Positions 1,049 through 16,523 of a DNA stretch of 32,233 bases are shown here, piece by piece. The stretch is from Polyangiaceae bacterium. Lineage in GTDB: Bacteria; Myxococcota_A; Polyangia; Polyangiales; Polyangiaceae. Numbering within the stretch: position 1 is the first letter of the stretch; the number at the start of each line of letters is the position of its first letter. The notes under the pieces are model-generated. The model was not told the origin of the DNA and made no database searches. It saw only the letters and a list, made by a program, of their open reading frames with translations. The position numbers and the translations under genes were made by a program. Location of the stretch: NCBI GenBank assembly GCA_020848455.1, contig JADLAB010000571.1, forward strand, positions 1-32,233, written 5' to 3'.

Positions 1049-2428
1049 TCATTCGGGTGCGTCGCCCTTGCCCTCGACGGGCGCGGGCGCGGTCGGCGGG
1101 GCCTCCTCGGGCGGGGCGGCACCGGTCGGCGGTTGCGGCTCTTCGGGCGGAGGCAGAGCCGGTGCGGCCGGAGGCGCCTCCTCGGGCGGGGCGGCGCCGG
1201 TAGGGGGCTGCCCGGCCGCCTCGCTGCGCCCCGGGAAGCTCGGGCGCGGCAGCTTGTTCGCGATCGACGGCCGGCCGGTCGGGCTCGTGCCGGTCGGCGC
1301 GGGAGCGGCGCCCGCGGCGGCACCGCCCTCTTCGTCGGCGGACTTCGGGTTCGTGCGCCCGCGCTTCGACGAAGGCCCGAGGCCGGGCTTGGCGGGCCGA
1401 GCCGGGGCGCTGCCCTGGGGCTGGAACTTGGGATCCGCGAGCGTGCCCGTCACGCGAAAGCCGTAGAACCCGTCGTCGCGCTTCGCGCGCTTCATGTCGG
1501 GGGAGCCGACCTCGAGCGCGGGCGGGAAGCTGTCGCCGGGCTTGCCGAGCAGGCTGCGCGTCGTGTCGTCGCGATCGCGGTAGCCGTCCGTGAAGCGGAA
1601 GCGCAGCGACAGATCGAGCTGCGAGCGGTTCCACGGCTCGCGGATGGTGATCTTGCCCTCGCCGATGATCTCGACGTCGCCGCCTTGCGCCGCGAACTCG
1701 TCGATGGTGAGCACGCCCTCCTTGGCCGTCGCGGTGAGGCTGAGGGTGCCGATGCGGGCCGGCGGCAGCGCGATGCCCTCGACCTTGGCCTTGCCGTCGC
1801 CGACGACGATGTCGTCGACCTTGAGATCGACCGTCCCCTCCGCCTTGCTGAACTTCCCCTCCTTGGGGGAGAGCACGACCTTGCCGTGGCCGAGCCCCGA
1901 CAGCGGCACCGGCAGCAGGGCCGCGAGCGGCTCCACCGTCGACAGGTCGAGGTGCTCGAGCTCGGCCAGGAGGTCGCCGCTCGAGCCTCCGTAGGGGAAG
2001 GTGCCGTGGAGCCTGCCGTCGAAGGCCTGCAGGTCGTAGTCGATGCGCACCCGGCCCGCGAGCAGGGGCAGGATCCGCACCCGGAGCGTGCCGCGCTCGA
2101 GCGTCACGACGCTCTCCTTCGGCTCGTCGGTGGCTGCGGCCTCGAGCGCCTTGGCGGCCGTCTTGTGCTTGCGGGGGATGTGGAGGCGGACGTCCTTCAC
2201 CTCGACGCCCGACAAGAGGTGGCCCGACAGCTCCCCGATCTCGAGGCGCATCGGCCCCGCCGAGCCCGGCTTGCGCGCGGCCGTGGCCTCGGAGCGCGCG
2301 AACTCCGCGAGGATGCGGTCCTTCACCTTGCCGAACGGGAAGGTGAGGTACGCGAAGAACACCAGGCACACGAGGTAGAAGACCGGATAGAAGGTCCACT
2401 TCGCGATCTTCCACAGGACGCGTTTCAT
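1049..2428 (-). CDS. gspN: Type II secretion system protein GspN
   Basis: The 459-residue product has a short cytoplasmic N-terminus, one membrane helix (about residues 12-30) and a periplasmic domain with repeated beta-rich LEIGELSGHLLSGVEVKD-like stretches, as in GspN. The last about 120 residues are low-complexity Pro/Ala/Glu/Gly and include a duplicated PPTGAAPPEEAPP segment. That tail is longer than the compact GspN of enterobacteria. GspN is an accessory inner-membrane component present in only some T2SS operons. Its position right after gspM, with a 4-nt ATGA overlap, supports the call even though sequence conservation in this family is low. The tail may cross the periplasm or peptidoglycan; that is inference. 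Confidence 0.82.
   Translation of the reverse strand: MKRVLWKIAKWTFYPVFYLVCLVFFAYLTFPFGKVKDRILAEFARSEATAARKPGSAGPMRLEIGELSGHLLSGVEVKDVRLHIPRKHKTAAKALEAAATDEPKESVVTLERGTLRVRILPLLAGRVRIDYDLQAFDGRLHGTFPYGGSSGDLLAELEHLDLSTVEPLAALLPVPLSGLGHGKVVLSPKEGKFSKAEGTVDLKVDDIVVGDGKAKVEGIALPPARIGTLSLTATAKEGVLTIDEFAAQGGDVEIIGEGKITIREPWNRSQLDLSLRFRFTDGYRDRDDTTRSLLGKPGDSFPPALEVGSPDMKRAKRDDGFYGFRVTGTLADPKFQPQGSAPARPAKPGLGPSSKRGRTNPKSADEEGGAAAGAAPAPTGTSPTGRPSIANKLPRPSFPGRSEAAGQPPTGAAPPEEAPPAAPALPPPEEPQPPTGAAPPEEAPPTAPAPVEGKGDAPE
1101..1201. repeat. 26-bp direct repeat within gspN
   Basis: Positions 1101-1126 and 1176-1201 are 26-bp copies with one mismatch, spaced exactly 75 bp (25 codons) apart. They encode the twice-occurring PPTGAAPPEEAPP segment in the GspN tail. 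The in-frame spacing suggests expansion by replication slippage or recombination within the coding sequence. Confidence 0.8.
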
Positions 2429-3126
2429 AGCGGCTGACCTCGGGTGGACGCGCTCGCCGGGGGACTCGACGCGCCGGCATCGGGGGCACCGGCGTCGACG
2501 CGGGTCGGCGCCGACCGCAGCGGCGGACGCGCGACGCCGGCATCGGCGCCGCCGTCCGGCGCGCCCGTGCTCGGCGCCGGGCCCTCGGCCTCCCCGCCCT
2601 TCTTGTCGTACGCCGAGACGCCGAGGTCGACGTCGTAGGCGTCGGGGCCCTCGCTGCGCGGCTTGACGTGCAAGAGGGTGATGGAGACGGGGTGACCGCT
2701 CTGCTCGATGCGCTCGAGCGTCTTGCCGAGGGCGAGGAGCCCCACGTTGCGCAGCTTGACCACCGTCATGCGCTCGGTGTAGCGCTTGCCGCGCGGCAAG
2801 GTCGGCCGATCCTTGCTCTCGGGCACATCGATGCCGTTGGCCTGGGCGGCGCTCTCGATGAGCGCACCGAGCGGCGGCGCCGGGCTCGCGTAGCGCAGGG
2901 CGAGGCTGTCGCGCTTCTTCTTCTGCTCGCCGAGCGCCTCGTCGGCCCGGTCGATCTGGCGCAGCGCCTTCCGGAAGGCTTCGTTCTGCGCGCGCGCGTC
3001 CTTGATCTGGAGGAACAGGAACACGGGCAGGCCGATCACCAGGAACAGCCCGAACAGAAGGCCGAGCACGGCGAGCATCCGTTGCTCGCGCGGCGAGAGC
3101 TTGCTCACGGTCGTGGCGCCGCTCAC
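2425..3126 (-). CDS. gspM: Type II secretion system protein GspM
   Basis: The product is 233 residues from a GTG at 3126 whose GTGA overlaps the gspL stop. An alternative GTG is at 3108. It has a short cytoplasmic segment with KLSPREQRM, one membrane helix (about 18-38), a charged helix likely to form a coiled coil (about 40-80) and a periplasmic ferredoxin-like region ending near SAYDKKGG. This is the GspM layout, in which the protein pairs with GspL to form the inner-membrane platform. The final about 60 residues are Asp/Ala/Pro/Gly-rich (GAPDGG, DAGAPDAGA) and probably disordered. The stop overlaps the gspN start by 4 nt. Confidence 0.88.
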   Translation of the reverse strand: MSGATTVSKLSPREQRMLAVLGLLFGLFLVIGLPVFLFLQIKDARAQNEAFRKALRQIDRADEALGEQKKKRDSLALRYASPAPPLGALIESAAQANGIDVPESKDRPTLPRGKRYTERMTVVKLRNVGLLALGKTLERIEQSGHPVSITLLHVKPRSEGPDAYDVDLGVSAYDKKGGEAEGPAPSTGAPDGGADAGVARPPLRSAPTRVDAGAPDAGASSPPASASTRGQPL

Positions 3127-4643
3127 TTGTCCGCTCCCGCGTCCGCCGCGCCCGTCTTGCGTCCGTCGCCTTCGCCGGCCGCGTCCTTCTTCTGGGCCTC
3201 CTCGTCCTTGTCGCCGGCGCCGCACTTCACGGACAGCTCGAGCACGTACTTCTGGCGCTCCGCGGTGCCCATCTTCGCCGTGCGCGTCACCTTGGCGTCG
3301 CGGAAGCAGGCGTGCTCGGCCATCTTCTTGCGGATGGTCTCGGCGTCACCCACGCTCGGCACGATGCCCTGCAGGGTGACGTTGCCGCGGTTGAAGTCGA
3401 ACTCGGCGATGTCGTGGACGATCTCCTTGGGGATGCGGCCCGAGAGCTCGAGCAGCACGTCGTAGGCGTCGAGCTCCGGCATCGGGTCGTCGGACTTGCC
3501 GCTCAAGGCCTCGTCGAGCAGATCCTCGGCGTGCTCGATGCTGCGCGTCTCCTCGCCGAGCACCTGCTTCGTGACCTCCGCGAGCTCGTTCTCGAGCGAC
3601 GTGCGCTCGGTCGACAGAGCGCGCAGCTCCGCGAACACGGAGAAGCCGAACGAGACGACGATGGCCGCGCCCAGGCCGGCCAGGAGCGGCGTCTTCTCGC
3701 GTAGGAAGCTGTAGCTCTCCTGGACGGCGAGCGAGCCGCGCCGCAGGTTGAGGTCGCCCGAGCGGCGCCCGAGCCCGAGCCCGAGACCGATCGCCTTGGC
3801 GAAGAGCCCCACCGAGGCCTCGATCCCGGGCCGGGGCTTCTCGAGCGCGAGCTGGGGCATGGGGCAGAGCACGAGACCGGTCTCGGCGAGCAGGAACTCG
3901 GCGAGGCCCTGCATCTCGCGTCCCGGCCCGACGGCGTACACCTCGCCGAGGGGCGGCCCGCCCCGCGCGCGCCAGGCGGCGAGGGTCTGCCGCAGCTCGC
4001 GCGCCCACACCTGGGCCGTGGCCGGCAGCCCGCGCATGCCGCGCGACAGCGTGCGGCAGAGCCGGGGCTCGCCGCCGTGCAGCACCAGGAAATCGGTGTG
4101 CGTCTCGGCGAGCTCCAGGACGGCGCGGTAGCCACCCGGCGCCACGCCGCGCAGGTGCGGGACGAGGTTGCAGAGGGGCAGGGCCCCGATGCCCACGCTC
4201 GCGGGCTCGGTACCGGTCGCGTGCTTGACGAGCTCGATGCACTGCCGCACGTCGTGCGCGTAGGCGACGCCCGCGAGGATCGGCAGCGTGCCTGCAGGGT
4301 CGAGCCCGGCGACCGGCCGGAGCACGCGGTGATCCATGACCCCGTCGTCGAGCTCGAAGGGTAGGGTCGCCTCGACCTCGAAGGCGAGCACGCTCGAGAG
4401 CTCGCGCCCCGCGGCAGCCGGCAGGTTGAGCAGGCGCACGAAGGCGCGCCCCCCGTCGAGGCCCACGGCCACGCCTTCGAAGCGCAGGCCGGCGACGGCC
4501 GTGCGCAGCGCCGCCGCCTGGGACTCGTGGGCGTCGTAGCGCTCCTCGCGCAGCGCCTCGATGGCGAGCCCGCGGTAGCGCGGCACCGTCAGCGCCACGC
4601 GCACGCTCTCGGCTCCCAGATCGATGCCCAACCACCTCGCCAC
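3123..4643 (-). CDS. gspL: Type II secretion system protein GspL
   Basis: This 506-residue protein has an actin-like cytoplasmic domain starting WLGIDLGAESVRVAL (residues 4-18), which resembles PilM. A DLNLRRG segment (297-303) precedes the membrane helix (about 317-339). A coiled coil (about 340-375) and a periplasmic ferredoxin-like domain follow. GspL recruits the GspE ATPase to the inner membrane and pairs with GspM. The start is GTG at 4643, with an AAGGAG site about 10 nt upstream. The gap to the gspK stop is 15 nt, one of the few non-overlapping junctions in this half of the operon. The last about 25 residues are Lys/Asp/Glu/Ala-rich and probably flexible. Confidence 0.93.
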   Translation of the reverse strand: MARWLGIDLGAESVRVALTVPRYRGLAIEALREERYDAHESQAAALRTAVAGLRFEGVAVGLDGGRAFVRLLNLPAAAGRELSSVLAFEVEATLPFELDDGVMDHRVLRPVAGLDPAGTLPILAGVAYAHDVRQCIELVKHATGTEPASVGIGALPLCNLVPHLRGVAPGGYRAVLELAETHTDFLVLHGGEPRLCRTLSRGMRGLPATAQVWARELRQTLAAWRARGGPPLGEVYAVGPGREMQGLAEFLLAETGLVLCPMPQLALEKPRPGIEASVGLFAKAIGLGLGLGRRSGDLNLRRGSLAVQESYSFLREKTPLLAGLGAAIVVSFGFSVFAELRALSTERTSLENELAEVTKQVLGEETRSIEHAEDLLDEALSGKSDDPMPELDAYDVLLELSGRIPKEIVHDIAEFDFNRGNVTLQGIVPSVGDAETIRKKMAEHACFRDAKVTRTAKMGTAERQKYVLELSVKCGAGDKDEEAQKKDAAGEGDGRKTGAADAGADK

Positions 4644-4658
4644 GAAACGCCTGCTCCT

Positions 4659-6086
4659 TTACTCGATGCGCCAGTAGACCACGTTCCCGAGCGGGTTCGA
4701 CACTAGCGCGCTCGACAGGGCGAGGGCAGCCTGGTCCGCGCTCGAGGCCGAAGAGCCCGGGGGCGGCGCGTTCGGGTCGCCGGCCGGCATGTAGCTCTGG
4801 AGATCGACCGCCTGGCGGAAGTCGACCACCGCCACGACGTCGACGCGCGTCTCGACGGTCTCGTCCTCGCTCACCTGGCGCTCGGCGATGCCCGTGACGT
4901 GGAAGCTGAACACCTTGCTCTCGGTGGCGATCATGTCGCGCACCTCGACGTCGCTGCGGAAGGTCACCGGCTGCACGCCGAACTCGGACAGGAAGGGGCC
5001 GATGAGCCCGCCGCCCTTCATCGTCTGCACGAAGTCCTTGCGGGACGGGAACAGCGGCGCCCCCATGGTGAAGCCGCGCACCAGCGTCACGCCCATGATG
5101 AAGCTCTGGGCCTGCACCGGGTCGACGCACATCGCGGCGTCGGTGGCGTTGGCGCAGATGATGGCGAGCAGGGTGAGCGGGCTCGCGGAGTTGACGTTGA
5201 CCGCGCCCTGACCCCACACCGTGAGCGCGCGGTCCTTGGGGTTGCCCCGCTCGGGCTCGACGAAGGTCGCCCAGAAGTCGTCGCTCATGCCGCGCACCAG
5301 GCGCAGCTCCTCGAGCGAGTCGTAGGCGGCGTTCTTGCGCATGTAGGGCTGGCCGATGTTCTGGTAGTAGTTGTCCTCGATGCCGCGCGTCGGCGTGGTG
5401 CTGTTCGGGTCGTCGCAGCCCTGGAGATCCTCGTCCGAGTCGGCCCAGTCGATGAGCGCCCCGCAGATGGTGCGCGGGTCGCTCGGCTGACCGTCGGCGT
5501 CGAGCGCCTCGAACAGCGGCTGGTACTGGGGCGAGCCCATGAGCGCCATGAGCTGCATCGAGAGCCTGAGCTCGCTGATGGCGTCGCCGCGCGCGCCCAC
5601 GTTGACGTTGAGCTTGCTGTCCTCGTCCGCCACCGTCAGCTCGAAACGCCCGCCGCTGAGCCCCAGGCTCTTGCCGGTCGACAGGTCGAGCTGCGCCAGT
5701 CCCTTGAAGGCCTCGGCGCCGGCCGCGTCGTTGAACGGGCCGAGGATCTGGTCGGCGAACTCCCACACCGGAATCTGCGGCGGCTTCATCTGGCCGCCCG
5801 AGCCCGCGCCGAGCAGCGCGAGCATCGGCGCCACGGCCTTGCGCACGGCGGGCTCGGTGGCGACGAGCAGGCGCGCCAGGTTCACGCCGCTCCTCGCGTT
5901 GTACTCGGCGATGAGCGCGTCGCGCTCGGACAACGCCGCGGCGAAGGTCGCGCCGCTGTCCTGCTGCACGTCGGACAGCAGGACCGCCATGACCGCGACG
6001 GCCCCGAGCACCACCACGAGCGCGGCCCCGCGCTCGTCGCGGCGCCGCGCGAGGAGGCGCCGGCGCAGGGTCGGACGGCGCCTCAT
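4659..6086 (-). CDS. gspK: Minor pseudopilin GspK
   Basis: This 475-residue protein is the large minor pseudopilin expected at the pseudopilus tip. The Arg-rich leader ends in RDERG, with predicted cleavage after Gly20. The following helix AALVVVLGAVAVMAVLL has Val at +5 instead of Glu, which is normal for GspK and marks it apart from GspG-J. The body carries the GspK signature around LIDWADSDEDLQG, then NYYQNIGQPYMRKNAAYDSLEELRLV-type helix-hairpin-helix features. The ATG at 6086 overlaps the gspJ stop by 4 nt. A Pro/Ala/Ser-rich patch (PNAPPPGSSASS) lies near the C-terminus. The call rests on size, motif and position between gspJ and gspL. Confidence 0.93.
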   Translation of the reverse strand: MRRRPTLRRRLLARRRDERGAALVVVLGAVAVMAVLLSDVQQDSGATFAAALSERDALIAEYNARSGVNLARLLVATEPAVRKAVAPMLALLGAGSGGQMKPPQIPVWEFADQILGPFNDAAGAEAFKGLAQLDLSTGKSLGLSGGRFELTVADEDSKLNVNVGARGDAISELRLSMQLMALMGSPQYQPLFEALDADGQPSDPRTICGALIDWADSDEDLQGCDDPNSTTPTRGIEDNYYQNIGQPYMRKNAAYDSLEELRLVRGMSDDFWATFVEPERGNPKDRALTVWGQGAVNVNSASPLTLLAIICANATDAAMCVDPVQAQSFIMGVTLVRGFTMGAPLFPSRKDFVQTMKGGGLIGPFLSEFGVQPVTFRSDVEVRDMIATESKVFSFHVTGIAERQVSEDETVETRVDVVAVVDFRQAVDLQSYMPAGDPNAPPPGSSASSADQAALALSSALVSNPLGNVVYWRIE

Positions 6087-6829
6087 CGGGTCGGCCTCGG
6101 CGCGGCCTGCGGGCTCGCGAAGGACAGGGGCACCTGCATCGGCAGCGATACCTTGGTCTCGAAGCGCGCGCTGTCCGAGCCGATGGCGTTGCCGAGCACG
6201 AGCACGATCGACACCTCGGACGGCAGGCGCAGGAACTGCCCGGCCGCCTGGGTGCTGTCCCAGCTGTCGAGCCAGCTGGCACTCACCGGGTCGTAGTACC
6301 GTAGCTCGAAGCGCTCCACGTCCTCGGCCATCACCTGCACCGTGCCGCCGTGGGCCGGGTCGGTGTCGATGTGCTTCGCCTCGCGGCGCACGAGGTCCTG
6401 CTTGCCGGTCGCGGGGTTGCGCGTGAGAAAGTAGGACAGCTCGTTCTGGTCCGACTCGTGGCTCTGGTGCGCGAGGCGGCGGTGCGAGAACGACGTGAAG
6501 TTCACGCGGCCGCCGGGGTGGTCGGCGATGCCGACGAAGGCGGTCTTGCGCACCACCTGCACCTGCGCGAAGGGCTCGTGCGCCGACAGGAACGCCATCG
6601 ACAGCTCGCGCGCCATGCGTGTCGTCGCGAGGCGACCCTGGGAGTAGCGGTCGTCCACCGTGGCCACGGCCTTGCTCGTGCGCCGCAGACCGTCGAGCGC
6701 GCCGTAGATGAGCAGGCTCATCATCGCGAGGATGGCGAGCGCGACCAGGACCTCGATCAGCGTGAAGGCCGTGGTGCCGGGCGTTCGCACGCGGCGGCTC
6801 CCGGGCTGGTCGTGGCGCGCGCGGCGCAT
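6083..6829 (-). CDS. gspJ: Minor pseudopilin GspJ
   Basis: The product has 248 residues. A class III prepilin leader of 21 residues precedes FTLIEVLVALAILAMMSLLIY, with Glu at +5. The residue before the cleavage point is Ala21, where Gly is the rule. GspJ forms the tip complex with GspI and GspK. The globular domain is beta-rich and includes ERFELRYYDPVSASWLDSW, matching the GspJ family pattern of a Y-D followed by a W-x-x-x-W segment. The start ATG at 6829 shares one base with the gspI stop (TGATG), so the genes are probably translationally coupled. Confidence 0.92.
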   Translation of the reverse strand: MRRARHDQPGSRRVRTPGTTAFTLIEVLVALAILAMMSLLIYGALDGLRRTSKAVATVDDRYSQGRLATTRMARELSMAFLSAHEPFAQVQVVRKTAFVGIADHPGGRVNFTSFSHRRLAHQSHESDQNELSYFLTRNPATGKQDLVRREAKHIDTDPAHGGTVQVMAEDVERFELRYYDPVSASWLDSWDSTQAAGQFLRLPSEVSIVLVLGNAIGSDSARFETKVSLPMQVPLSFASPQAAPRPTR

Positions 6830-7572
6830 CACCTGCCACCGTCCTTGCCGCCGCCCGGGTCCAGCATGGCGTCGGCGGCGGCCGCCTCGGCCGCCGCGGC
6901 CACGATGGCCCCGGCCTGGGAGGGATTGACCACCCACTGCACGAGCTCGAAGCCGTAGGTGCCGCCACCGGTCTCGGTCCACGTGAGCTTCACCGTGACG
7001 CGCCGCACCGAGGCCTCGAGCAAGAGCTTGAGGTCCGGGTACACCATGCCCATGACCATCGACGCGATGCCGGCGCCGGCCGACGCCGCGGCCGCGGCCG
7101 GGTCGTCGCCCGCGCCCGCGAGCAGCTGGGTCACGTCGTGCACGCCCGCGTCGGGCGGCAGGCTCACCTCGCCCTGCGAGGACTTGTTGAGCACGCCGAG
7201 CGCGCCGAGGTCGAGGTCGGAGTCGAGGTCGAGCTTGCCGAGCGCCGGATCGGGCAGCTCCGGCTTCTCGATGCTCCACTCGCAGCCGATGTCGTTCGCC
7301 TCCTGGCCTTCGCAGCACGCACCGCTCGCGTGGTCGTCCATCTCGCTGAAGCCGTCCTTCGCGAGGGCGATCTCGATCTCGGTCATCTTGCAGCGCGCGA
7401 GCCCGGTGGACAGCGCCAGGTAGCGCGCGTGGTTGGCCTCCTTCACGGGCGTGAACTGGGCGCTGATGACCGCCGTCACCGACAGGCCCAGGATGGCGAT
7501 CGCCACCAGCACCTCGAGCAGGGTGAAGCCAGGGCTCGCCGCCCGGCGCCGGCAAGGCATCGGGGCGCTCAT
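6829..7572 (-). CDS. gspI: Minor pseudopilin GspI
   Basis: The 247-residue product has a prepilin leader MSAPMPCRRRAASPG cleaved after Gly15, then FTLLEVLVAIAILGLSVTAVI with Glu at +5. This leader and helix, and its place between gspH and gspJ, identify GspI, which nucleates the pseudopilus tip with GspJ and GspK. It is about twice the usual GspI length of about 120 residues. The extra part includes a Cys-Cys pair (GACCEGQ) with a third Cys in DIGCEW, an Ala-rich segment (about 165-180) and an Ala/Gly tail. The late WTETGGGTYGFELVQWVV strands fit the end of a pseudopilin fold. The start overlaps the gspH stop by 4 nt. Confidence 0.9.
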   Translation of the reverse strand: MSAPMPCRRRAASPGFTLLEVLVAIAILGLSVTAVISAQFTPVKEANHARYLALSTGLARCKMTEIEIALAKDGFSEMDDHASGACCEGQEANDIGCEWSIEKPELPDPALGKLDLDSDLDLGALGVLNKSSQGEVSLPPDAGVHDVTQLLAGAGDDPAAAAASAGAGIASMVMGMVYPDLKLLLEASVRRVTVKLTWTETGGGTYGFELVQWVVNPSQAGAIVAAAAEAAAADAMLDPGGGKDGGR

Positions 7573-8333
7573 CGGCCCTCCGGGTCGCTGCGGTCGCTCT
7601 CGTCGCGCTCGTCGCGGACCTTGGGCAGGGTGTGCGCGCCGCTCTCCACCACCGCGCGTCCGGTGAGCGGCGACACGAGGATGGTGTAGATGTCGTCGTC
7701 CGTCGGCTCGTCGCCCCGCGCGATCTGGATCGCGGCGCGCTCGGTCTGCCCGCCGGGCCAGAAGTACAGGTACACGCGCCCGTCGCGCACCGGCTCCTCC
7801 TCGTGCCCGACCTCGATCTGGCGGAAGCGCACGCCGTCCTCGAGGCGCTTCTGGCTCTTGCCGTTGCCGTCGTCGTCCGAGAGCCCGAAGGCCTCGACGG
7901 CGTGGAAGCTCGGCCTCGGCGCGCGCGGGCCCTCCACGATGCGCTCGCCCGCCGCGATGGCCTCCGCCTCGAGCTCGTTGGCCGCCGCTGCGCCGCCGCT
8001 CTTCTCGTTCTTGCGCACCAGCATGCGCTTTTCGTCGCTCTGCTCGAGCGTCACCGTGCGCGCCTCGAAGTCGAAGGCGAGCCGGGTCGGTCGCGACGTG
8101 GCGCTCGCGTGGTTGTACGCCACGCGTATCGCGGCCGTCACGCCGCTCGAGCTCTGCTTCAGGCGCGCACCGCCGAGGGCGCCGGTGCCGAGCACCACGC
8201 CGCCCGTCAGGAGGACGACGAGCGCGATCGAGACCAGCACCTCGATGAGGCTCATGCCGCGCCGTCCGCGCGGTACGGCACGCCGCGGCGCGAGCCGCGA
8301 GCGCGAGGCCGTCCCGAGGGCGGTGCGCGGCAT
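7569..8333 (-). CDS. gspH: Minor pseudopilin GspH
   Basis: The 254-residue product has a 26-residue basic leader ending PRGRRG, then MSLIEVLVSIALVVLLTGGVVLG with Glu at +5, so it should be processed by prepilin peptidase. The position after gspG and the domain size fit GspH, which lies between the tip complex and the GspG shaft. The soluble part has an Ala/Glu-rich insert (about 112-135), then YLYFWPGGQTERAAIQI and a C-terminal TGRAVV strand, as GspH/FimT folds often end. The tail is acidic and Arg/Asp-rich (RDERDESDRSD). The gap to gspG is 5 nt. Confidence 0.9.
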   Translation of the reverse strand: MPRTALGTASRSRLAPRRAVPRGRRGMSLIEVLVSIALVVLLTGGVVLGTGALGGARLKQSSSGVTAAIRVAYNHASATSRPTRLAFDFEARTVTLEQSDEKRMLVRKNEKSGGAAAANELEAEAIAAGERIVEGPRAPRPSFHAVEAFGLSDDDGNGKSQKRLEDGVRFRQIEVGHEEEPVRDGRVYLYFWPGGQTERAAIQIARGDEPTDDDIYTILVSPLTGRAVVESGAHTLPKVRDERDESDRSDPEGR

Positions 8334-8338
8334 GGGGG

Positions 8339-8794
8339 CTACTTCTCCTCCTTCGAGTCGCTCTTGCCGGCGCCCGACATGATGTCGTCCTCGGTGCCTT
8401 CCTTCTCGTCCGGCCCGAAGGAGATGACGCGGATGTTGTCGCCGTCGCAGACGATCTTGTAGGTCTGGTTCCAGGGGTCCTTGGTCGGCGAGTCGACGTC
8501 GAGCTCCTTGGCGTCGAGCAGGGTCTGGATCGTCGGGCAGTCCTTGCCCTTCAGGGCCTTGTAGTTCACCGCCACGCGCCGCAGATCCTTCGTGGCCGTG
8601 CGGGCCGTGTCCTTGCGCGCCTCGGCGAGCTTCGGGATGACGAAGAAGCTCACGCCGCCGGCGATGAGCGCCATGATCGCCACGACGATGAGGACCTCGA
8701 CCAGCGTGACGCCGCGTCGCGCCGCGCGCCGCAGGCGCGTGACGGTGGTGGGCGTCGCGTGCGTCGACGCCCGGTCTCGTGCTGGCTCGCCCAT
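8339..8794 (-). CDS. gspG: Major pseudopilin GspG
   Basis: The 151-residue product is the main pseudopilus subunit. The start at 8794 is chosen because GAGGAGG lies 6 nt upstream; an in-frame ATG at 8866 is possible but has a poorer site. Cleavage is predicted after Gly28 (AARRG), giving VTLVEVLIVVAIMALIAGG with Glu at +5; Val at +1 replaces the usual Phe. The family motif DPWNQTYKI (expected DPWGxPY) and the calcium-loop signature ISFGPDEKEGTEDDI near the C-terminus are both present. The C-terminal SGAGKSDSKEEK tail is extra. The gene sits just downstream of a diverged GspG-like gene. Confidence 0.93.
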   Translation of the reverse strand: MGEPARDRASTHATPTTVTRLRRAARRGVTLVEVLIVVAIMALIAGGVSFFVIPKLAEARKDTARTATKDLRRVAVNYKALKGKDCPTIQTLLDAKELDVDSPTKDPWNQTYKIVCDGDNIRVISFGPDEKEGTEDDIMSGAGKSDSKEEK

Positions 8795-8873
8795 CGGGGC
8801 CTCCTCGGCGGTCGGCTCCGCCACGTGGTGTCTCTGTCTACAAGCAACTGGCGGCATCGTTTTCATCCTTCTT

Positions 8874-9281
8874 TCACTCCACCCGGTCCAGGGTGCGCAT
8901 GTCACCGCTCGGCCCGAGGCTGATGAGATCGTAGCTCTCCGGGTGACGTCGTCCGGGACACGAGAGCAACAGCGGGCGGCCCCAGGCGTCGACCGGCGCG
9001 GTGTGCAGATAGCCCTCCTGCTCGAGGATCCCCAGGGAGGGCGGACACTTCCACTCGTGGTCCGCGCGGTAGGCGTCGAGCGCGGCGCCGACGAGCTCGA
9101 GCGTGGCGCGGGTCGAGCGGATGCCGCGGTGCCGGCGCTCGCGCAGACCGAGCACGAGCAAGAGGACGGCCATGCACAGGCCGGCGATGAGCGGGCGCGA
9201 GCGCAAGAGCGGGAAGCGCAAGCCCCGGCGCCGCTCCCAGGGGAAGAAGACCGTCTGCTCGCGCGTGCGTCGGCGTGCCAT
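8874..9281 (-). CDS. GspG-like protein lacking prepilin cleavage site
   Basis: This 135-residue protein lies between gspF and gspG. Residues 30-46 form one membrane helix (LIAGLCMAVLLLVLGL) preceded by a very basic N-terminus. The soluble part follows the GspG pattern: an ALDAYRADHEWKCP helix end, DAWGRPLLLSCPG (98-110, compare DPWGxPY) and YDLISLGPSGD (117-127, compare the GspG C-terminal YxxxSxGxDG). Two cysteines (79 and 108) could form a disulfide. There is no G-(F/M)-x-x-x-E prepilin site ahead of the helix, so it should stay as an uncleaved inner-membrane protein. It may be a diverged pseudopilin paralogue that works as an anchor or assembly factor; that role is inference. The gap to gspF is 10 nt. 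Confidence 0.72.
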   Translation of the reverse strand: MARRRTREQTVFFPWERRRGLRFPLLRSRPLIAGLCMAVLLLVLGLRERRHRGIRSTRATLELVGAALDAYRADHEWKCPPSLGILEQEGYLHTAPVDAWGRPLLLSCPGRRHPESYDLISLGPSGDMRTLDRVE

Positions 9282-9291
9282 GGGTCCTGGC

Positions 9292-10518
9292 TCACTTGAA
9301 GTCGCTCGCCTGCACGAGCGGGAACAGGATGGCCATGGCGATGAACCCGACCGCGGCACCCATGACGACGATGATGAGCGGCTCGAGCAGGCTCGTGAGC
9401 ATGCCGACGCGGGTCTCGACCTGGTGGTCGTAGGCCACCGCCACGTTCTCGAGCATCTCCTCGAGCTGCCCGGAGCGCTCGCCGATGGCGATCATGTGGG
9501 TCACGAGCGGCGGAAAGCGCCCGCTCTTCTTGAGCGGCTCGGCGATGCTCTGACCCTCGCGGATCGCGCCCGACGCCTCGTTGACGACCTTCTCGAGCGC
9601 CACGTTGCCGAGCACCGTTCGCACGATGTCCATCGCCTGCAGGAGCGGTACCCCGGCGCCGAGCAGCGTGCCGAGGGTGCGCGTGAAGCGCGCGATGGCC
9701 ACCATCTGCGTGAGCTTGCCGAACACGGGCGCGCGCAGGGCGAAGCTGTCCCACGCGAGCCGACCGAGCTTGGTGCCGAGCCAGCGCCGGAAGGCCCACA
9801 CCGCCACGCCGATCACGATGGCCAGCAGCCACCAGAAGGTCGCCATGAAGCGCGAGGTGCCGATGAGCACCTCGGTGTACCAGGGCAGGTTCTTCTTCTG
9901 GCTCGCGAACACCTGCGTCAGCTTGGGCACCACGGCGACCATGAGCACGCTGATGAGGCCGACGGCGATGATGAGCATCAGGGCCGGGTAGGCGAGCGCC
10001 GAGGTGACCTTGCCCCTCAGGCGCGCCTGGCCCTCGATGAAGCCCGTGAGCCGGTCGAGCACCTGTTCGAGCGTGCCGCTCGCCTCGCCGGCGCGCACCA
10101 TGTTCGTGTAGAGGGGCGTGAACACCTTCGGGTGGAGCTCGAGCGCCGTGGCGAAGCTCTTGCCCTCGCGCACCTGGTCGCGCACCTCGGTGAGGATGCG
10201 CCGCAGGCTCGCGCGCTCCACCTGGTCGATGAGCGCCGTGAGCGCCTCGAACAGCGGGATCTTGGCGCGCACCAGGGTCGCGAGCTGGCGCGTCATGACC
10301 GCGATGTCCTGCGCCTTGGGGCGGTCGAACAGGCGCTTGAGGTCGACGCCGCGCTCCTTCTTGCCCTCGGCGTCGGTCTTGCCCTCCTTGGCCTGGGTGA
10401 GGAGGATGCCGTCGCGGCGGAGGGTCGTGCGCAGCGCCTTCTGGTTCTCGGCGTCGCGCACGCCGTTCACGGACTTGCCCGAGGCTGCGACGATGCCGCG
10501 GTACTCGAAGACGGCCAC
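9292..10518 (-). CDS. gspF: Type II secretion inner-membrane platform protein GspF
   Basis: The 408-residue product starts at a GTG with GAGGGGGG about 8 nt upstream. It has the two repeated GspF/PilC cytoplasmic helical domains (about 70-175 and 275-380), each introduced by a MTRQLATLV or IARFTRTLGTLL helix and carrying a G-E-x-S-G motif (RAGEASGTLEQVL, IGERSGQLEEML). Membrane helices are at about 175-197, 224-243 and 380-402. The family organises the platform and couples GspE movement to pseudopilus growth. Length and domain order are normal. Confidence 0.96.
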   Translation of the reverse strand: MAVFEYRGIVAASGKSVNGVRDAENQKALRTTLRRDGILLTQAKEGKTDAEGKKERGVDLKRLFDRPKAQDIAVMTRQLATLVRAKIPLFEALTALIDQVERASLRRILTEVRDQVREGKSFATALELHPKVFTPLYTNMVRAGEASGTLEQVLDRLTGFIEGQARLRGKVTSALAYPALMLIIAVGLISVLMVAVVPKLTQVFASQKKNLPWYTEVLIGTSRFMATFWWLLAIVIGVAVWAFRRWLGTKLGRLAWDSFALRAPVFGKLTQMVAIARFTRTLGTLLGAGVPLLQAMDIVRTVLGNVALEKVVNEASGAIREGQSIAEPLKKSGRFPPLVTHMIAIGERSGQLEEMLENVAVAYDHQVETRVGMLTSLLEPLIIVVMGAAVGFIAMAILFPLVQASDFK

Positions 10519-10730: not shown

Positions 10731-12509
10731 TCACTCGTCGATGATGACGTCCTCCTGGGTGGCCGCCAGCACTTCCTCGACCGTGGTCTTGCCCTCGAGC
10801 ACCTTGCGCGCGCCGTCGTCGCGCAGGGTCTCCATGCCCTCGCCGATCGCGGCGCGCTTGATGGTCTGGGCGTCGGTGTTCTTGAGGATGAGGCCGCCGA
10901 CCACGTCGTCGATCATCAAGAGCTCGTAGATGCCCCGCCGCCCGATGAACCCCTTGCCCAGGCACTCCGGACAGCCCTTGGCCCGGTGGAAGACCGGGTT
11001 GCCCATGTCGCGCCCGACCCAGCGGTACTCGGCGCCCTGCACCTGGTAGCGGTGGGAGGGTTGGCGCTGCGCCTTCCAGCGCAGGCGCGCCTCGTCGAGG
11101 CCGAGCTGGCGCAGCTCGTAGTCCGTCGCGCGGTAGGGCTCCTTGCAATGGGGGCAGAGCACGCGCACCAGGCGCTGAGCGAGCATCCCGATGATGCTCG
11201 AGCGCACGAGGAAGCTCTCGATCCCCATGTCGACCAGGCGCGTGATGGCGCTCGCCGCGTCGTTCGTGTGGATGGTCGACAGCACCAGATGGCCGGTGAG
11301 CGACGCGTGGATGGCGATCTCGGCCGTCTCGCGGTCGCGGATCTCGCCCACCATGATGACGTCCGGGTCCTGGCGCAGAAAGGCGCGCAGGGCCGAGGCG
11401 AAGGTCAGGTTGATCGACGGCTTGACGTGCACCTGGTGGATGCCGCCGATCTCGTACTCGACCGGATCCTCGGCCGTGAGGATGTTGCGGCTCGGGTCGT
11501 TGATGCGGTTCAGGCACGCGTAGAGCGTCGTGGTCTTGCCGCTGCCGGTCGGCCCCGTCACGAGGATGATGCCGTCCGGCCGGTGGATGAGGTCGTCCAT
11601 CAGGCGGAAGTCGCGCTCGGAGAAGCCTAGATCCTCGAGCGACAAGAGCACGCTCGACTTGTGCAGGATGCGCATCACGATGCGCTCGAAGGCGCGGCTC
11701 GTGGGGATGGTCGAGACGCGGATGTCGACGCTTTTCCCGGCGATCTTGAGCGTGATGCGGCCGTCCTGGGGCAGGCGCTTCTCGGCGATGTTGAGCTGCG
11801 CCATGATCTTCACGCGCGCCAGGATGGCGCTCATGAACTGCTTGGAGGCGCGCTTGGCCACGTAGAGCTCGCCGTCGATGCGGTAGCGCACCACGACGTC
11901 GCGCTCTTCGGGCTCGATGTGGATGTCGCTGGCGCGCTCGCGCACCGCCTGGGCGAAGAGCCCGTTCACCCAGGCGATGATGGGGGCCTCGTCGTCGGAG
12001 TCGAGGATGTCGACCAGCTGGTCCTCCTCGTTCTGCGCCCCCGTGTCGAGGTTCCCGCCGGCGTCCTCGCGCTTCTCCCACACGCGGTTGATGGCATCGA
12101 GCACGGCCGCGCCGCTCGTGACGGAGAGCTCGACGGGCTTGCCGAAGATGGTGCGCACGTCATCGACGGCGGTGGTGTCGAGCGGGTCGGCGACGGCGCA
12201 GTACACCTTCTCGTCGTCCTCGCCGAGCACGAGCAGCTTGTGCGCCTTGGCGTAGGTGATGGGGATGCGCCCGGCCACGCCGAGCGACACCGAGGCGACG
12301 TCGATCTGCCCGAGGTAGTTGAAGCCCCACTCGGCGGCGTAGGCGCGCGCGATGTCCTCCTCGCGCGCCACCGCGGCACCGACGATGGCCTCGTGGAGGG
12401 TCTGCCCCCGCTCGTCCACCGCCTCCATCACGGCCGGCAGCCGGTCCGCGGGCACGACGCCGCGCCGCACCAGCACCTCGGCGAGAAACTGTGGCTGCGC
12501 TTGGCTCAT
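10731..12509 (-). CDS. gspE: Type II secretion ATPase GspE
   Basis: The 592-residue product has N-terminal T2SSE domains (about 1-160), then the secretion ATPase core. Walker A GPTGSGKTT is at 319-327, the Asp box ILTAEDPVEYE at 343-353, Walker B DPDVIMVGEIRD at 381-392, and the His box TGHLVLSTIHTND at 405-417. A zinc-binding pair C452-x2-C455 and C513-x2-C516 is present, but the loop between the pairs is about 57 residues against about 29 in well-studied GspE proteins. GspE hydrolyses ATP at the cytoplasmic face through GspL and GspF. The start ATG at 12509 has GGAGG 8 nt upstream, 25 nt after gspD. An upstream ATG at 12560 would overlap gspD and add an uncharacteristic 17 residues. Confidence 0.95.
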   Translation of the reverse strand: MSQAQPQFLAEVLVRRGVVPADRLPAVMEAVDERGQTLHEAIVGAAVAREEDIARAYAAEWGFNYLGQIDVASVSLGVAGRIPITYAKAHKLLVLGEDDEKVYCAVADPLDTTAVDDVRTIFGKPVELSVTSGAAVLDAINRVWEKREDAGGNLDTGAQNEEDQLVDILDSDDEAPIIAWVNGLFAQAVRERASDIHIEPEERDVVVRYRIDGELYVAKRASKQFMSAILARVKIMAQLNIAEKRLPQDGRITLKIAGKSVDIRVSTIPTSRAFERIVMRILHKSSVLLSLEDLGFSERDFRLMDDLIHRPDGIILVTGPTGSGKTTTLYACLNRINDPSRNILTAEDPVEYEIGGIHQVHVKPSINLTFASALRAFLRQDPDVIMVGEIRDRETAEIAIHASLTGHLVLSTIHTNDAASAITRLVDMGIESFLVRSSIIGMLAQRLVRVLCPHCKEPYRATDYELRQLGLDEARLRWKAQRQPSHRYQVQGAEYRWVGRDMGNPVFHRAKGCPECLGKGFIGRRGIYELLMIDDVVGGLILKNTDAQTIKRAAIGEGMETLRDDGARKVLEGKTTVEEVLAATQEDVIIDE

Positions 12510-12534
12510 GCTCGCCGCCTCCGCCTGCCGGTCC

Positions 12535-15081
12535 TCATTCGGTGCGCGTGCCGCCGGCACCCGCAGGATTCGCCCCGGGCACGCGGACCCGCGGCGCCAC
12601 CGGGCGCGCCGGGCGCGCGCCCGTCGCGGCCCCAGCGGCGGGTACGGGCGGCTTGGGCGCGGCGGCCGGCGTCGTGCCGGCGGCGCTGCCGCTGCCGACC
12701 ATGCTCGGCAGGGCGATGGGCTTGACCACCTCGTGGCCCTTCTTCTCGCGCGGAGCGAGCTCGCGCGCGAGATCGGCGCGCGCCTCGTCGCGCAACTGCG
12801 TCTGGCGGATGTGCTCGAGCAGTCCGTTCGTGCGCGTGTAGTCGGCCGCCGGCTGCCACTCGACCTGATCGTCGAACACGAAGTAGCGGTCCAGGAACTC
12901 CTGCCGCTCCTGCATCTTGCGCTCGAAGATCGCCTTCAGATCGTTCTGGTCGCGAATGATGTAGGGCGTCAGCACCAGGAGGAGGTTGGTCTTCTGGGTC
13001 GTCTTCTTGGTCGACTTGAACAGCAGGCCCAGGATCGGGATGTCGCCGAGGATCGGGACCTTGCTCTCGGCGTTGACCACCGAGTCGCGCACCAGGCCGC
13101 CGATCACCACCGTCTGCTGGTCGCGCACGATGAGCTGCGTCGAGGCGGTGCGCTTGTTGATGGGGATGGCGCCGAGGTTGCCGTCGAGCGGCGCGCCCGC
13201 GTCCGAGAACTCCTCCTCGAGCTCGAAGTGCACCTGGTCGCTGTCGTTGATGTGCGGCGTCACCTTGAGCTTGATGCCGACGTCCTGGCGCTGGGCCTGA
13301 AAGCCCATCCCGCCGAGCATGCCGAGGCTGCTGAGGCCCGCGAGTCCCCCCGCGCCGGCCGCGCCCGCCTGGCTGGCGAGGCCCGCCAGGTTGCCGAGGC
13401 CGCCGCCCACGTTGGTCTGCAGCGGGATGTTCTGGCCGATCGAGATCTCGGCCGGGATGTTGTCGGTCGCGAGGATGTGCGGCGTCGCGAGCACGTTGGA
13501 GTCGCCGCTGCGCGCCAGGGCGTTCAGGGTCACGCCGATCGCCGGGATGGAGATGCCGGGGAAGAGGTTGCTCGTGCCCGCGAGGTCGGGGCCGCGCACG
13601 CCGAAGAACAGCGCCTCGAGGTCGCCGGCGGAGGGCAGCAGGATCGATTTGGTGGCGTTGACGCCGCCGTAGAACAGCGTGTCGCCGCTGCCGCCGAGCG
13701 CCGCCGTGCTGCCGCCGTGGTACCCGACGCCCCACTGGTTCGAGTGGTCGACGTTGACGTCCATGATCACCGCCTCGATGAACACCTGGCGGCGCGCCTG
13801 GTCGAGACGGTCGATGACGTTGCGCAGCTGGGCGTAGTCGCGCAGCGAGGAGGTCGTGAGCAGCGAGTTGGTCGCCGTGTCGCAGGTGACCCGCACGTCG
13901 CCCTCGAAGATGAGGTCGTTGCCGCCCGCCGCCGTCGCGCCGCCCGCGGCCGGGCGCCGGGCCGCGCCGGCTGCCGCGGGCTTGGCAGCGGGTGCGCCGG
14001 TGCCACCGAGCACGCCGTTCAGCGTCTGCGACAGGTCGTCGCACTTGGCGTGCTGCAGGGGCAGGACGTGGATGCCGCTCCCCGCGCCGGACGTGGGAAT
14101 GTCCACCCGGTCGAGCAGATCGCGCAGCCGCTGGTAGTCGCTCTCGGTCGCGATGAGCACGAGCGAGTTGTTGTGGTCGTCGGGGATGATGCGCGACCTG
14201 CCGGCCTTGCCGCTGTCGAGCGCGAGCATCTCGTTGAGCTCGGCTGCGACCTCGCTCGCCGGCCGGTAGTGGACGGGCTGCATCCAGATCTGGTCGCCGG
14301 CTCCGCCGGAATCGACCTCCTCGACGATGCGCAGCATGCGTCGGATGTTGGAGCCGGTGTCGGTGATGATGAGCAGGTTGGTCGGGCCGTACACCGTGAT
14401 GTCGGCCGCGGCGCTCTTGAAGCGCGACAGCACGTTCGAGACCTCGGTGGCGTCGACATGGCCGAGGCGGTAGAGGCGCGTCACGAAGCGGTCGGCGTCG
14501 GGGACGGGATCGGCCGTGCCGTAGATCGGCGTCGTCTGCTGCGCGATCCCGGCGGTCTCGACGATCTTGAGGAAGCGCCCGTGGGGGATGACCGTGAGGC
14601 CGTTCGTCTCGAGGATCGACAGGAAGGCCTGGTAGGCCTCGCCCACGGTGACCTTGCCGGGCGCCTGCACGGTCGCCTTGATGGGCCGCACCTTCGCGCC
14701 GTAGATGAAGCGGCGCCCGGTCGCCTGCGCGATGGTGTCGACCAGCTCCGAGAGCTCCGTCTCCTCGAAGTTGAACGTCACCATCGAGCTCTCGGGCAGC
14801 GGCTTGTAGTCGATGTCCGGCTCGCCCTTCTTGAAGGGCTCGTTCGGGTCCTTGCCCGGCTCCGACGGCTCGCCGGCCTTGGGCGGCGGCGCGGCGGGCC
14901 CGGTCGGCGGGGCCTTGGGGGGCGGCTCGCCGGCCTTGGCGCTGCCGCTGCCCGCCGGCGGGGTGCGCATCGGTGGCGGCTCGCCCGGCGTCGTGGGCTG
15001 CGCGTGGGCGGTCGCGGCGAGCGTCATGACGCCCACCGACAGCGCGGCCCCCAGAGCGATACGGTGGCGTCCGGGGCGCAT
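12535..15081 (-). CDS. gspD: Type II secretion outer-membrane secretin GspD
   Basis: The product is 848 residues from the ATG at 15081, chosen because GAGGAG lies about 7 nt upstream; ATG 15096 is an alternative. A signal peptide (1-27, cut before QPTTPG) leads to a Pro/Gly-rich linker (30-95) and the N0 domain (about 100-175). N1 to N3 modules follow (about 198-430), and N3 contains an Ala/Gly/Pro insert (361-388). The secretin core (about 490-710) has VLATPHILATDN, the VPILGDIPILGLLF motif and the NLLLVLTPYII end. A Gly/Ala/Leu-rich loop (about 558-595) lies where the gate is expected and is unusually long. The tail after 711 is probably the pilotin-binding or flexible region. It forms the outer-membrane channel of the T2SS. 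Confidence 0.96.
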   Translation of the reverse strand: MRPGRHRIALGAALSVGVMTLAATAHAQPTTPGEPPPMRTPPAGSGSAKAGEPPPKAPPTGPAAPPPKAGEPSEPGKDPNEPFKKGEPDIDYKPLPESSMVTFNFEETELSELVDTIAQATGRRFIYGAKVRPIKATVQAPGKVTVGEAYQAFLSILETNGLTVIPHGRFLKIVETAGIAQQTTPIYGTADPVPDADRFVTRLYRLGHVDATEVSNVLSRFKSAAADITVYGPTNLLIITDTGSNIRRMLRIVEEVDSGGAGDQIWMQPVHYRPASEVAAELNEMLALDSGKAGRSRIIPDDHNNSLVLIATESDYQRLRDLLDRVDIPTSGAGSGIHVLPLQHAKCDDLSQTLNGVLGGTGAPAAKPAAAGAARRPAAGGATAAGGNDLIFEGDVRVTCDTATNSLLTTSSLRDYAQLRNVIDRLDQARRQVFIEAVIMDVNVDHSNQWGVGYHGGSTAALGGSGDTLFYGGVNATKSILLPSAGDLEALFFGVRGPDLAGTSNLFPGISIPAIGVTLNALARSGDSNVLATPHILATDNIPAEISIGQNIPLQTNVGGGLGNLAGLASQAGAAGAGGLAGLSSLGMLGGMGFQAQRQDVGIKLKVTPHINDSDQVHFELEEEFSDAGAPLDGNLGAIPINKRTASTQLIVRDQQTVVIGGLVRDSVVNAESKVPILGDIPILGLLFKSTKKTTQKTNLLLVLTPYIIRDQNDLKAIFERKMQERQEFLDRYFVFDDQVEWQPAADYTRTNGLLEHIRQTQLRDEARADLARELAPREKKGHEVVKPIALPSMVGSGSAAGTTPAAAPKPPVPAAGAATGARPARPVAPRVRVPGANPAGAGGTRTE

Positions 15082-15085
15082 CGAG

Positions 15086-15415
15086 TCACTCCTCATCGCT
15101 TCTGCTCACATCCTTCGCGGCGGGGGCCTCTGTAGCACCGCGGCGCGTGGCTTTGGAGCCAAAGACCGTGGGTGGGCGGCGCGTGGAGGGCCGGTTCGGC
15201 GGCGCCTCGTCGTCCGCGCCGTCTGCGTCCGGCGTCGTGGCCTTGGCGGAGCTCGCCGCCTTGGTCGGAGACAGGAGCCCGTGCGCCGCGCCCACGAGCG
15301 CGAAGCCGAGCCCGCTCGCGAGCGCGAGCGCGCCGAGCGCGAACGCGACGACGTAGATGAGCGTCCGCTTCAGGCTTGCCGGGCGGGCGGGGGCGGCTTG
15401 GTCCTGCAGCACCAT
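15086..15415 (-). CDS. Uncharacterised one-helix membrane protein between gspC and gspD
   Basis: This 109-residue protein starts MVLQDQAAPARP. One hydrophobic helix (about 18-44, TLIYVVAFALGALALASGLG) follows LKR, so the N-terminus should be cytoplasmic and the rest periplasmic. The periplasmic part is Ala/Ser/Pro/Asp-rich (DADGADDEAPPNRP) and ends in charged residues. The stop is 4 nt ahead of the gspD start and the gap from gspC is 31 nt, so it belongs to the operon. I recognise no family. The layout resembles a GspC or GspB-type bitopic protein without a folded domain, so a role in secretin assembly or inner-outer coupling is possible but unproven. Confidence 0.6.
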   Translation of the reverse strand: MVLQDQAAPARPASLKRTLIYVVAFALGALALASGLGFALVGAAHGLLSPTKAASSAKATTPDADGADDEAPPNRPSTRRPPTVFGSKATRRGATEAPAAKDVSRSDEE

Positions 15416-15446: not shown

Positions 15447-16409
15447 TCACTGGATGTTGAACTCGATGGACACCGGCGCACCCTTGCGGTTGAGCGCCAC
15501 GCTCAGCCGGTCGGCGGCGCGCAGGCGGCCGTAGGCCTCGAGCGCCTTCTGCGGGTCGGTAATCTCCATCCCGTTGATCGAGTCGAGCCTGTCGCCGTTC
15601 TTGAACCCGAGCGTGTTGAGCAAGCTTCCCGAGCGGATGCCGAACATGCGCACGCCGACGACCTTGTCGCCTTCCTTCTCGGGCACGATGCGCGCCTGCT
15701 TCATGAGCTCGGCCTGGTTCTCGAGGATCTCGTCGACGAGCGAGCGATCGATGGCGTACTCGGTCTCGCTCACCTTCTTGATCTTGGAGGCCATCTCCGG
15801 CGACAGCGCGCCCCGGCTCGCGGGCGCCTTGCCCGGCGCGGCGGCGGCGCCTGGCTTGGCCGGCGCGGCACGCGCCATGCGACCGCGGTCGCGCAGCCGG
15901 ATCTTGCAGCGCGCGCCGCCCTTGCTCATCCACACGGTGTCGGACCCGATGTACTCGACCTTCGCGCCCTGCACCTCCTGGCCGCGTCGGCGCAGCAGGG
16001 TCGAGCCCGAGTTGTCGAACGCGGCGAAGGACCAGTCCGGATCCTCGGACGCCGTGATGATGATCACACGGCCGTAGTCGCAGTCGGGATCGGCCGTGGG
16101 GTCGCCCGACGCGGTGTGGCCGGGCTCGCCCTCGTCCGGGGTGGGGGGAATGCTGAGGCTCGTGCCGTCCACGGGGCCGGTCACCGAGTCGAACGGGTTG
16201 CGCGCCAGCAGGGCCTTGGCGCTCGGTCGCTTCGGGGTCTTCGACGCGGTGCCCTTGCCGGTCGTGGATGCGCGTACCGCACCGCCGCCCTCGGCGATGG
16301 TGGCGCCGACGAGCTGCCCGATGCCGCGCGACTGGAACAGGGCGACCAGGGCGATCAGCCCACACAGGACGAGCGGGTAGAAGCGCTTGAGCTTGGCGTC
16401 GAAACCCAT
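15447..16409 (-). CDS. gspC: Type II secretion inner-membrane protein GspC (PDZ type)
   Basis: The 320-residue product has a short cytoplasmic part, one membrane helix (about 11-27, YPLVLCGLIALVALF) and the periplasmic homology region (about 68-172). That region opens with LLARNPFDS and contains CDYGRVIIITASEDPDWSFAAF and the VEYIGSDTVWMSKGGARCKIRL strands. A Pro/Ala linker (180-205) and a C-terminal PDZ domain (about 245-318) follow, the latter including FGIRSGSLLNTLGFKNGDRLDSING. GspC connects GspD to GspL/GspM and helps pick substrates. The ATG at 16409 is preferred because the membrane helix then starts near residue 11; a GTG at 16484 would add 25 residues. It heads the gsp gene set. Confidence 0.9.
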   Translation of the reverse strand: MGFDAKLKRFYPLVLCGLIALVALFQSRGIGQLVGATIAEGGGAVRASTTGKGTASKTPKRPSAKALLARNPFDSVTGPVDGTSLSIPPTPDEGEPGHTASGDPTADPDCDYGRVIIITASEDPDWSFAAFDNSGSTLLRRRGQEVQGAKVEYIGSDTVWMSKGGARCKIRLRDRGRMARAAPAKPGAAAAPGKAPASRGALSPEMASKIKKVSETEYAIDRSLVDEILENQAELMKQARIVPEKEGDKVVGVRMFGIRSGSLLNTLGFKNGDRLDSINGMEITDPQKALEAYGRLRAADRLSVALNRKGAPVSIEFNIQ

Positions 16410-16523
16410 GGGACCGACGAGCCAGTAGCCAAAAGCGTGCCAGCCCGGGGAGCGCGAAATGGCGGGGCTTCTTCGGGCGCCCACGACGCGCCCCGGCCAA
16501 CCTGGCGCGGCCGACCTGGCCCT

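Follow-up and report, generated by a model that had tools for sequence, protein, structure and literature searches.

The closest described counterparts of the protein examined here are pseudopilins of the type II secretion system (T2SS) and duplicated archaeal filament subunits. The protein is the product of an open reading frame (ORF) at 9281-8874, minus strand, in a 32,233-nucleotide stretch of contig JADLAB010000571.1 of a Polyangiaceae bacterium (GCA_020848455.1; the whole stretch is called the window below), and we use GspG paralogue as its working name. Excerpts of one study describe the minor pseudopilins GspH, GspI, GspJ and GspK as carrying a class III signal and sitting at the tip (PMC8134430). 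The same excerpts describe a mitochondrial GspG with a GspG head and an N-terminal extension, for which they give no known prepilin peptidase, and which keeps the polar anchor and Glu at position +5 and is thought to be processed (PMC8134430). For the archaellum, part of a second study presents ArlF and ArlG as duplicates of the archaellin ArlB that were turned into a putative stator, with ArlG cleaved at its N-terminus in Sulfolobus (PMC8667602).

The GspG paralogue has in common with GspG (PulG, EpsG; profiles T2SSG and TIGR01710) its head fold, signatures, a cysteine pair found in the local GspGs, helix-to-head spacing and operon. It differs in having a basic, conserved and probably cytoplasmic tail, and we do not file it as GspG because, despite the GspG-type head, it lacks the prepilin site and Glu+5 and falls in a separate clade of the tree. 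The minor pseudopilins are pseudopilin relatives encoded in the same operon, but the paralogue lacks their class III signal and carries a head of the GspG type. The nearest odd GspG that we met in print, as far as those excerpts describe it, is the mitochondrial one, which unlike the paralogue keeps the polar anchor and Glu+5. Like ArlF and ArlG, the paralogue is a filament-subunit duplicate in which a soluble head follows an N-terminal membrane helix. The likeness is one of analogy only: ArlF and ArlG are archaeal, derive from ArlB and have an independent origin, and the head here is GspG-type and not archaellin-type; they do provide a precedent for a filament subunit becoming a fixed machine part. 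We found no description of such a protein in the open-licence literature, in agreement with the original prediction, a note made from the DNA sequence, that no standard T2SS component is of this type.

GspG-type head, membrane helix and basic tail

The gene (8874..9281, minus strand; ATG at 9281, stop at 8876-8874) encodes 135 amino acids, starting with MARRRTREQTVFFPWERRRGLRFPLLRSRPLIAGLCMAVLLLVLGLRERRHRG and ending with VDAWGRPLLLSCPGRRHPESYDLISLGPSGDMRTLDRVE. Its identity as a GspG head on a membrane anchor is well supported. Pfam T2SSG matches the product at 29.3 bits (cut-off 21), as well as 29 of 29 aligned family members. A profile of the family retrieved eight distinct GspG sequences from PDB (E 6e-7 to 3e-3), and no other entry had an E-value under 0.08. 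When 70 family members were compared with 88 GspGs by hhalign, the result was 99.6% (E 1.7e-22, 110 columns), with the match running from the membrane helix to the C-terminal end of the head. TIGR01710 scores the paralogue at 30.3 bits against a cut-off of 88.85; the true GspG of the operon itself reaches only 35.9.

Profile, alignment, model and fold matches place the periplasmic end of helix 1 and the head at residues 47-135 (8877..9143). Positions D98-A99-W100-G101 and S121-x-G123 are invariant in an alignment of 29 rows. So is Cys79 (9045..9047), which, like Cys108 (8958..8960, placed from the same alignment), aligns with a cysteine of the neighbouring GspG. Exactly two cysteines are present in 62 of the 70 members and the pair is common to the local GspGs; Cys79 and Cys108 may form a disulfide. 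In the C-terminal loop, compared with the GspG calcium site using ligand identities taken from background knowledge, family f1 reads GGLDR[IV]E, the others DDN[IV] and GspG TEDDI. A structure model built from six rows (three family members and three neighbouring GspGs; mean predicted local distance difference test, pLDDT, 69) has a helix at 29-74, a short helix at 83-88 and three strands. In a Foldseek search with this model, the first 13 places all went to GspG structures, PulG and EpsG among them (E 4.5e-3 to 0.29, probability 0.75-1.00), so that the fold match is to GspG.

The N-terminal tail (residues 1-29; 9195..9281) has a net charge of about +8, computed on a 98%-identical copy (L005). 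Across 70 copies, tails measure 21-38 residues and carry a net charge of +3 to +10 (median +7). Such a charge would, by positive-inside topology, put the tail in the cytoplasm and the GspG head outside. The tail contains the motif xxFFPWERR, with P14-W15-E16 at 9234..9242 and both W15 and E16 invariant in 29 sequences. PWE occurs in 61 of the 70 tails, usually as [IV]x[FL]PWE+R, and the tails of families f17, f18 and f69 are different but similar, hydrophobic-LG followed by basic residues. Two loci, L071 and L072 (genomes G013 and G187), have lost PWE from the tail, and their gspF was matched in two pieces.

Hydropathy and the model helix place a transmembrane helix at residues ~30-46 (9144..9194). 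Its mean hydropathy is at least 1.6 in 69 of 70 copies, and it starts 45-51 residues ahead of the first cysteine in all 70 (median 49). The Pfam N_methyl profile, which GspG, GspH, GspI and GspJ of the same operon all match, found nothing in the paralogue or its 29 relatives, rows that had been selected for their likeness to the window's protein and not for absence of the motif. In the set of 70 copies, where an ORF was counted as a paralogue only if it had no prepilin motif, this absence is partly by construction. A looser prepilin motif sought in the first 60 residues of these 70 gave two matches in or beside the helix (L075 and L087), which we have taken as chance. At the position corresponding to Glu5, only 3 of 70 copies have E or D, versus E in 88 of 88 GspGs, on the assumption that the register can be counted from the first cysteine and with the GspG rows chosen by a motif that requires E.

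Among the starts listed for 32 loci, no other start yields a cleavage site. A longer leader is unlikely because the only upstream in-frame start lies inside gspF. A longer start restoring a prepilin leader was rejected: the chosen starts follow closely on the gspF stop and none of the alternatives adds the motif. The protein is probably left uncleaved in the cell.

The original prediction had placed the ORF exactly, giving no strand, and had described it as a GspG-like head without a prepilin motif ahead of gspG. The T2SSG score above cut-off, the lack of an N_methyl match and the motif GVTLVE in the adjacent GspG bear this out. Its further description of a basic N-terminus and an uncleaved helix without Glu+5 finds support in the sequence, in the comparison of profiles, in conservation and in a structure model of moderate quality, and both a fold unrelated to pilins and a canonical cleavage site at another start, which it had named as possible objections, were looked for without success.

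Distribution, selection and origin

The gene sits between gspF (stop side at 9292, same strand) and gspG in a T2SS operon. The distance from its start to the gspF stop ranges from -4 to 96 nucleotides, with a 4-nucleotide overlap in 10 of 70 copies. The ratio of nonsynonymous to synonymous substitution rates (dN/dS) between the window copy and its nearest relative is 0.051, and purifying selection on the window copy was found on this measure. A chance ORF is ruled out by this value together with the recurrence of the gene at this position in other genomes; likewise, the antisense ORF at 8592-9299 (plus strand) is ruled out by the minus-frame dN/dS and conservation. The genome itself holds no second close copy of the paralogue, the next match (E 0.008) overlapping a GspG-like ORF on another contig.

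The paralogue has a match in 56 of the 59 genomes examined from its own family and order; of the three others, two have only a PilC-like relative of gspF and one has none. Where the gspF-gspG junction was read, 68 of 69 genomes of the order have the gene, 67 as a separate gene and one fused in frame to gspG, and in other families of the class it is present in 17 of 39 (f17 11/11, f18 4/4, f69 1/1 and f19 1/3); most of these loci were fetched by a match to the family profile, and the counts are not random samples. Between gspF and gspG, the gene occurs in none of 17 genomes of other classes of the phylum. The junction table was made by hand, includes five further loci whose gspF is partial or split, and used only the first ORF after gspF, as later calls included a miscalled GspH. 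In the fused locus (L028, from 1501, plus strand) the gene's stop is lost and the frame runs into gspG. The single f19 carrier (L160, G430) has an f1-like copy on a contig of 3,075 bases, the rest of f19 being without the gene, and this contig is probably misplaced.

The set of 70 copies leaves out duplicate loci of one genome, L034 (a duplicate of L005), L101 (at a contig end), L028 (the fusion), L070 and L074 (stretches that lack gspF) and, within L109-L126, the loci with PilC or a split gspF. A wider contig scan by short peptide patterns found two near relatives, and says nothing on absence elsewhere; a plasmid scan gave two weak matches.

In a tree of 159 rows (70 family members and 88 GspGs among them), the family and GspG parted at 100/98. 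A second tree of 99 rows with more lineages (38 and 57 among them) put the family encoded before gspG on one side of a branch at 80/86, a split present in 85% of 200 bootstrap trees; the two trees are limited by few columns, 110 and 111. On these alignments the family is one clade apart from GspG.

Four genomes (L060 of f22, L148 of f71, and L162 and L172 of f34) encode an extra GspG head without prepilin motif directly after gspG, of separate derivation from the main family, for example at 2402-2809 (plus strand) in L060 and in an ORF ending at 1488 (plus strand) in L148. These copies require four label changes in the tree; the copy in L060 clusters with the gspG of that locus (100/93), and the L162 copy stands beside its own gspG. 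This pattern suggests that gspG was turned repeatedly into an unprocessed form, although we give these copies little weight because they are single-genome finds and may be relics.

Proposed role at the base of the pseudopilus

Processing lets pilins enter filaments. We infer a mechanism in which a duplicated gspG became a permanent inner-membrane anchor, a fixed base piece of the pseudopilus acting as nucleation site, hand-over point or stator, and we judge the case for it to be evenly balanced. Duplication would have provided an extra copy of gspG, in which the prepilin cleavage site and Glu+5 disappeared and a basic cytoplasmic tail bearing a short conserved motif was acquired. Its product would be held in the inner membrane as a single-pass protein, with the tail inside and the GspG head outside. 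As the helix sets the head at the same distance from the membrane as in GspG, the protein would resemble a GspG subunit frozen before assembly, with a head that could contact GspG and a tail that could dock on the platform. A fixed base piece is favoured because the GspG head and spacing are kept, the protein is predicted to be membrane-held and its cytoplasmic part is conserved. Capping, nucleation and regulation of the pseudopilus had been offered as roles; a tip cap is the least likely of these, since a protein that is not cleaved and has a charged tail in the cytoplasm would be expected to remain membrane-bound, and a role at the base fits better.

If correct, the base-piece proposal bears on the pick-up of subunits and on what holds the filament base in place, and a conserved pilin-headed protein that has a cytoplasmic tail, and whose gene lies in the T2SS operons of a bacterial order, offers a handle on that step. 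The copies after gspG suggest that gspG may have given rise to a fixed part on more than one occasion. The repeated making of such a part from gspG would, if true, parallel in bacteria the way in which the archaellum stator arose.

Several observations weigh against this proposal or narrow it. One genome of the order, G126 (L100), has gspF-gspG without the gene, as do 22 of the 39 genomes in other families of the class, so a T2SS can do without the gene. Nor do all copies have the tail motif, as PWE is missing from the close relatives G013 and G187, from one f2 genome and from f17. A model built from three rows without GspG is poor (mean pLDDT 58), so that the fold assignment rests mainly on sequence; the better model is not independent because GspG rows were included, and its best Foldseek E-value is only 4.5e-3. 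Finally, a co-loss test of GspL as a PilM-like partner in 20 genomes with PWE tails, non-PWE tails or no gene gave that partner no support, because GspL retains its INLRxG-type linker ahead of the membrane helix in each of the three groups, with or without PWE; two of the gene-less genomes, L136 and L137, gave only partial matches.

It is doubtful, as a more specific form of the proposal, that the tail docks through its motif on a platform protein (perhaps on GspL, at its actin-like domain) and so links the ATPase side directly to a fixed GspG-like head at the base, in an arrangement made several times from gspG in Myxococcota. By eye, the N-terminus of PilN and the linker of GspL show a short hydrophobic-P/G-basic motif before a single membrane helix, as does the paralogue tail, but the motif is too short to show homology. 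The genome's own PilN reads VNLLPQVREKR, and the paralogue tail, [IV]x[LF]PWE, has no Asn and does not match INLLP, which we take to be the form of the PilN motif. The likeness is of note for the binding of PilM by the PilN N-terminus, as given in part of a published study (PMC5805733).

Among other readings, a brake on length or activity is a minor but real possibility. The anchored head would then be a dead-end partner of the growing pseudopilus or of free GspG, limiting length and returning subunits to the membrane. The retention of the GspG head, with its invariant D98-A99-W100-G101 and S121-x-G123, alongside the absence of what a pilin needs for polymerisation is in keeping with this, yet a pure competitor needs no conserved cytoplasmic tail, and W15 and E16 are invariant in 29 sequences. 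A membrane chaperone is unlikely: it would pair with GspG or GspH before assembly and keep them stable or correctly oxidised, outside the filament base. The cysteine pair common to the neighbouring GspG and the adjoining position of the two genes speak for such a pairing, whereas the GspG-type head suggests filament-type contacts. We consider improbable a role outside the filament, in which the head binds secreted substrates, or GspM or GspC through their periplasmic domains, and passes substrates on to the pseudopilus; the gene is lineage-restricted, as a substrate adaptor might be, but the conserved cytoplasmic tail is left without explanation. Very little speaks for an ordinary pseudopilin cut at an unconventional site, as the GG before the helix in many tails is followed by charged residues and a later helix start, Glu+5 is missing and N_methyl matches 0 of 29. 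Least credible is a decaying gspG duplicate without function, which could describe the few single-genome copies after gspG and which we reject for the main family on the dN/dS of 0.051 (window copy), the breadth (68 of 69 genomes of the order, one with the gene fused to gspG) and the single old clade.

The T2SS operon of the window

The operon runs on the minus strand in the order C-D-E-F-(GspG paralogue)-G-H-I-J-K-L-M, then probably N. The calls of gspC, gspM and gspN rest on weak matches or position, and that of gspL on position and homologues. Upstream of the paralogue gene are gspF, the platform protein (9292..10518; TIGR02120 above cut-off), gspE, the ATPase (10731..12560; TIGR02533 above cut-off), gspD, the secretin (12535..15096), and a gspC-like gene (15447..16484) whose product has an N-terminal anchor and a weak PDZ match below cut-off. 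Downstream, gspG (8339..8794) encodes the cleavable major pseudopilin with the prepilin motif GVTLVE; its start is not settled, 8866 being also possible. It is followed by gspH-like (7569..8333) and gspI-like (6829..7572) pseudopilin genes, both assigned by profile match, gspJ (6083..6829; PF11612) and gspK (4659..6086; PF21687). The last three are gspL (3123..4643), which has no Pfam match and owes its assignment to its position and to a search for homologues in 20 genomes, a gspM-like gene (2425..3123; PF04612 below cut-off) and a gspN-like gene (1049..2428), assigned by position only, with no Pfam match.

Compared with L034, gspG at 8339-8794 has a synonymous divergence (dS) of 0.022, against 0.265 for the GspG paralogue and 0.153 for gspF; the low gspG value may be a sign of recent gspG exchange or conversion. 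Upstream of gspC, an ORF at 16554-18008 (minus strand) resembles, by eye, an NtrC-type response regulator.
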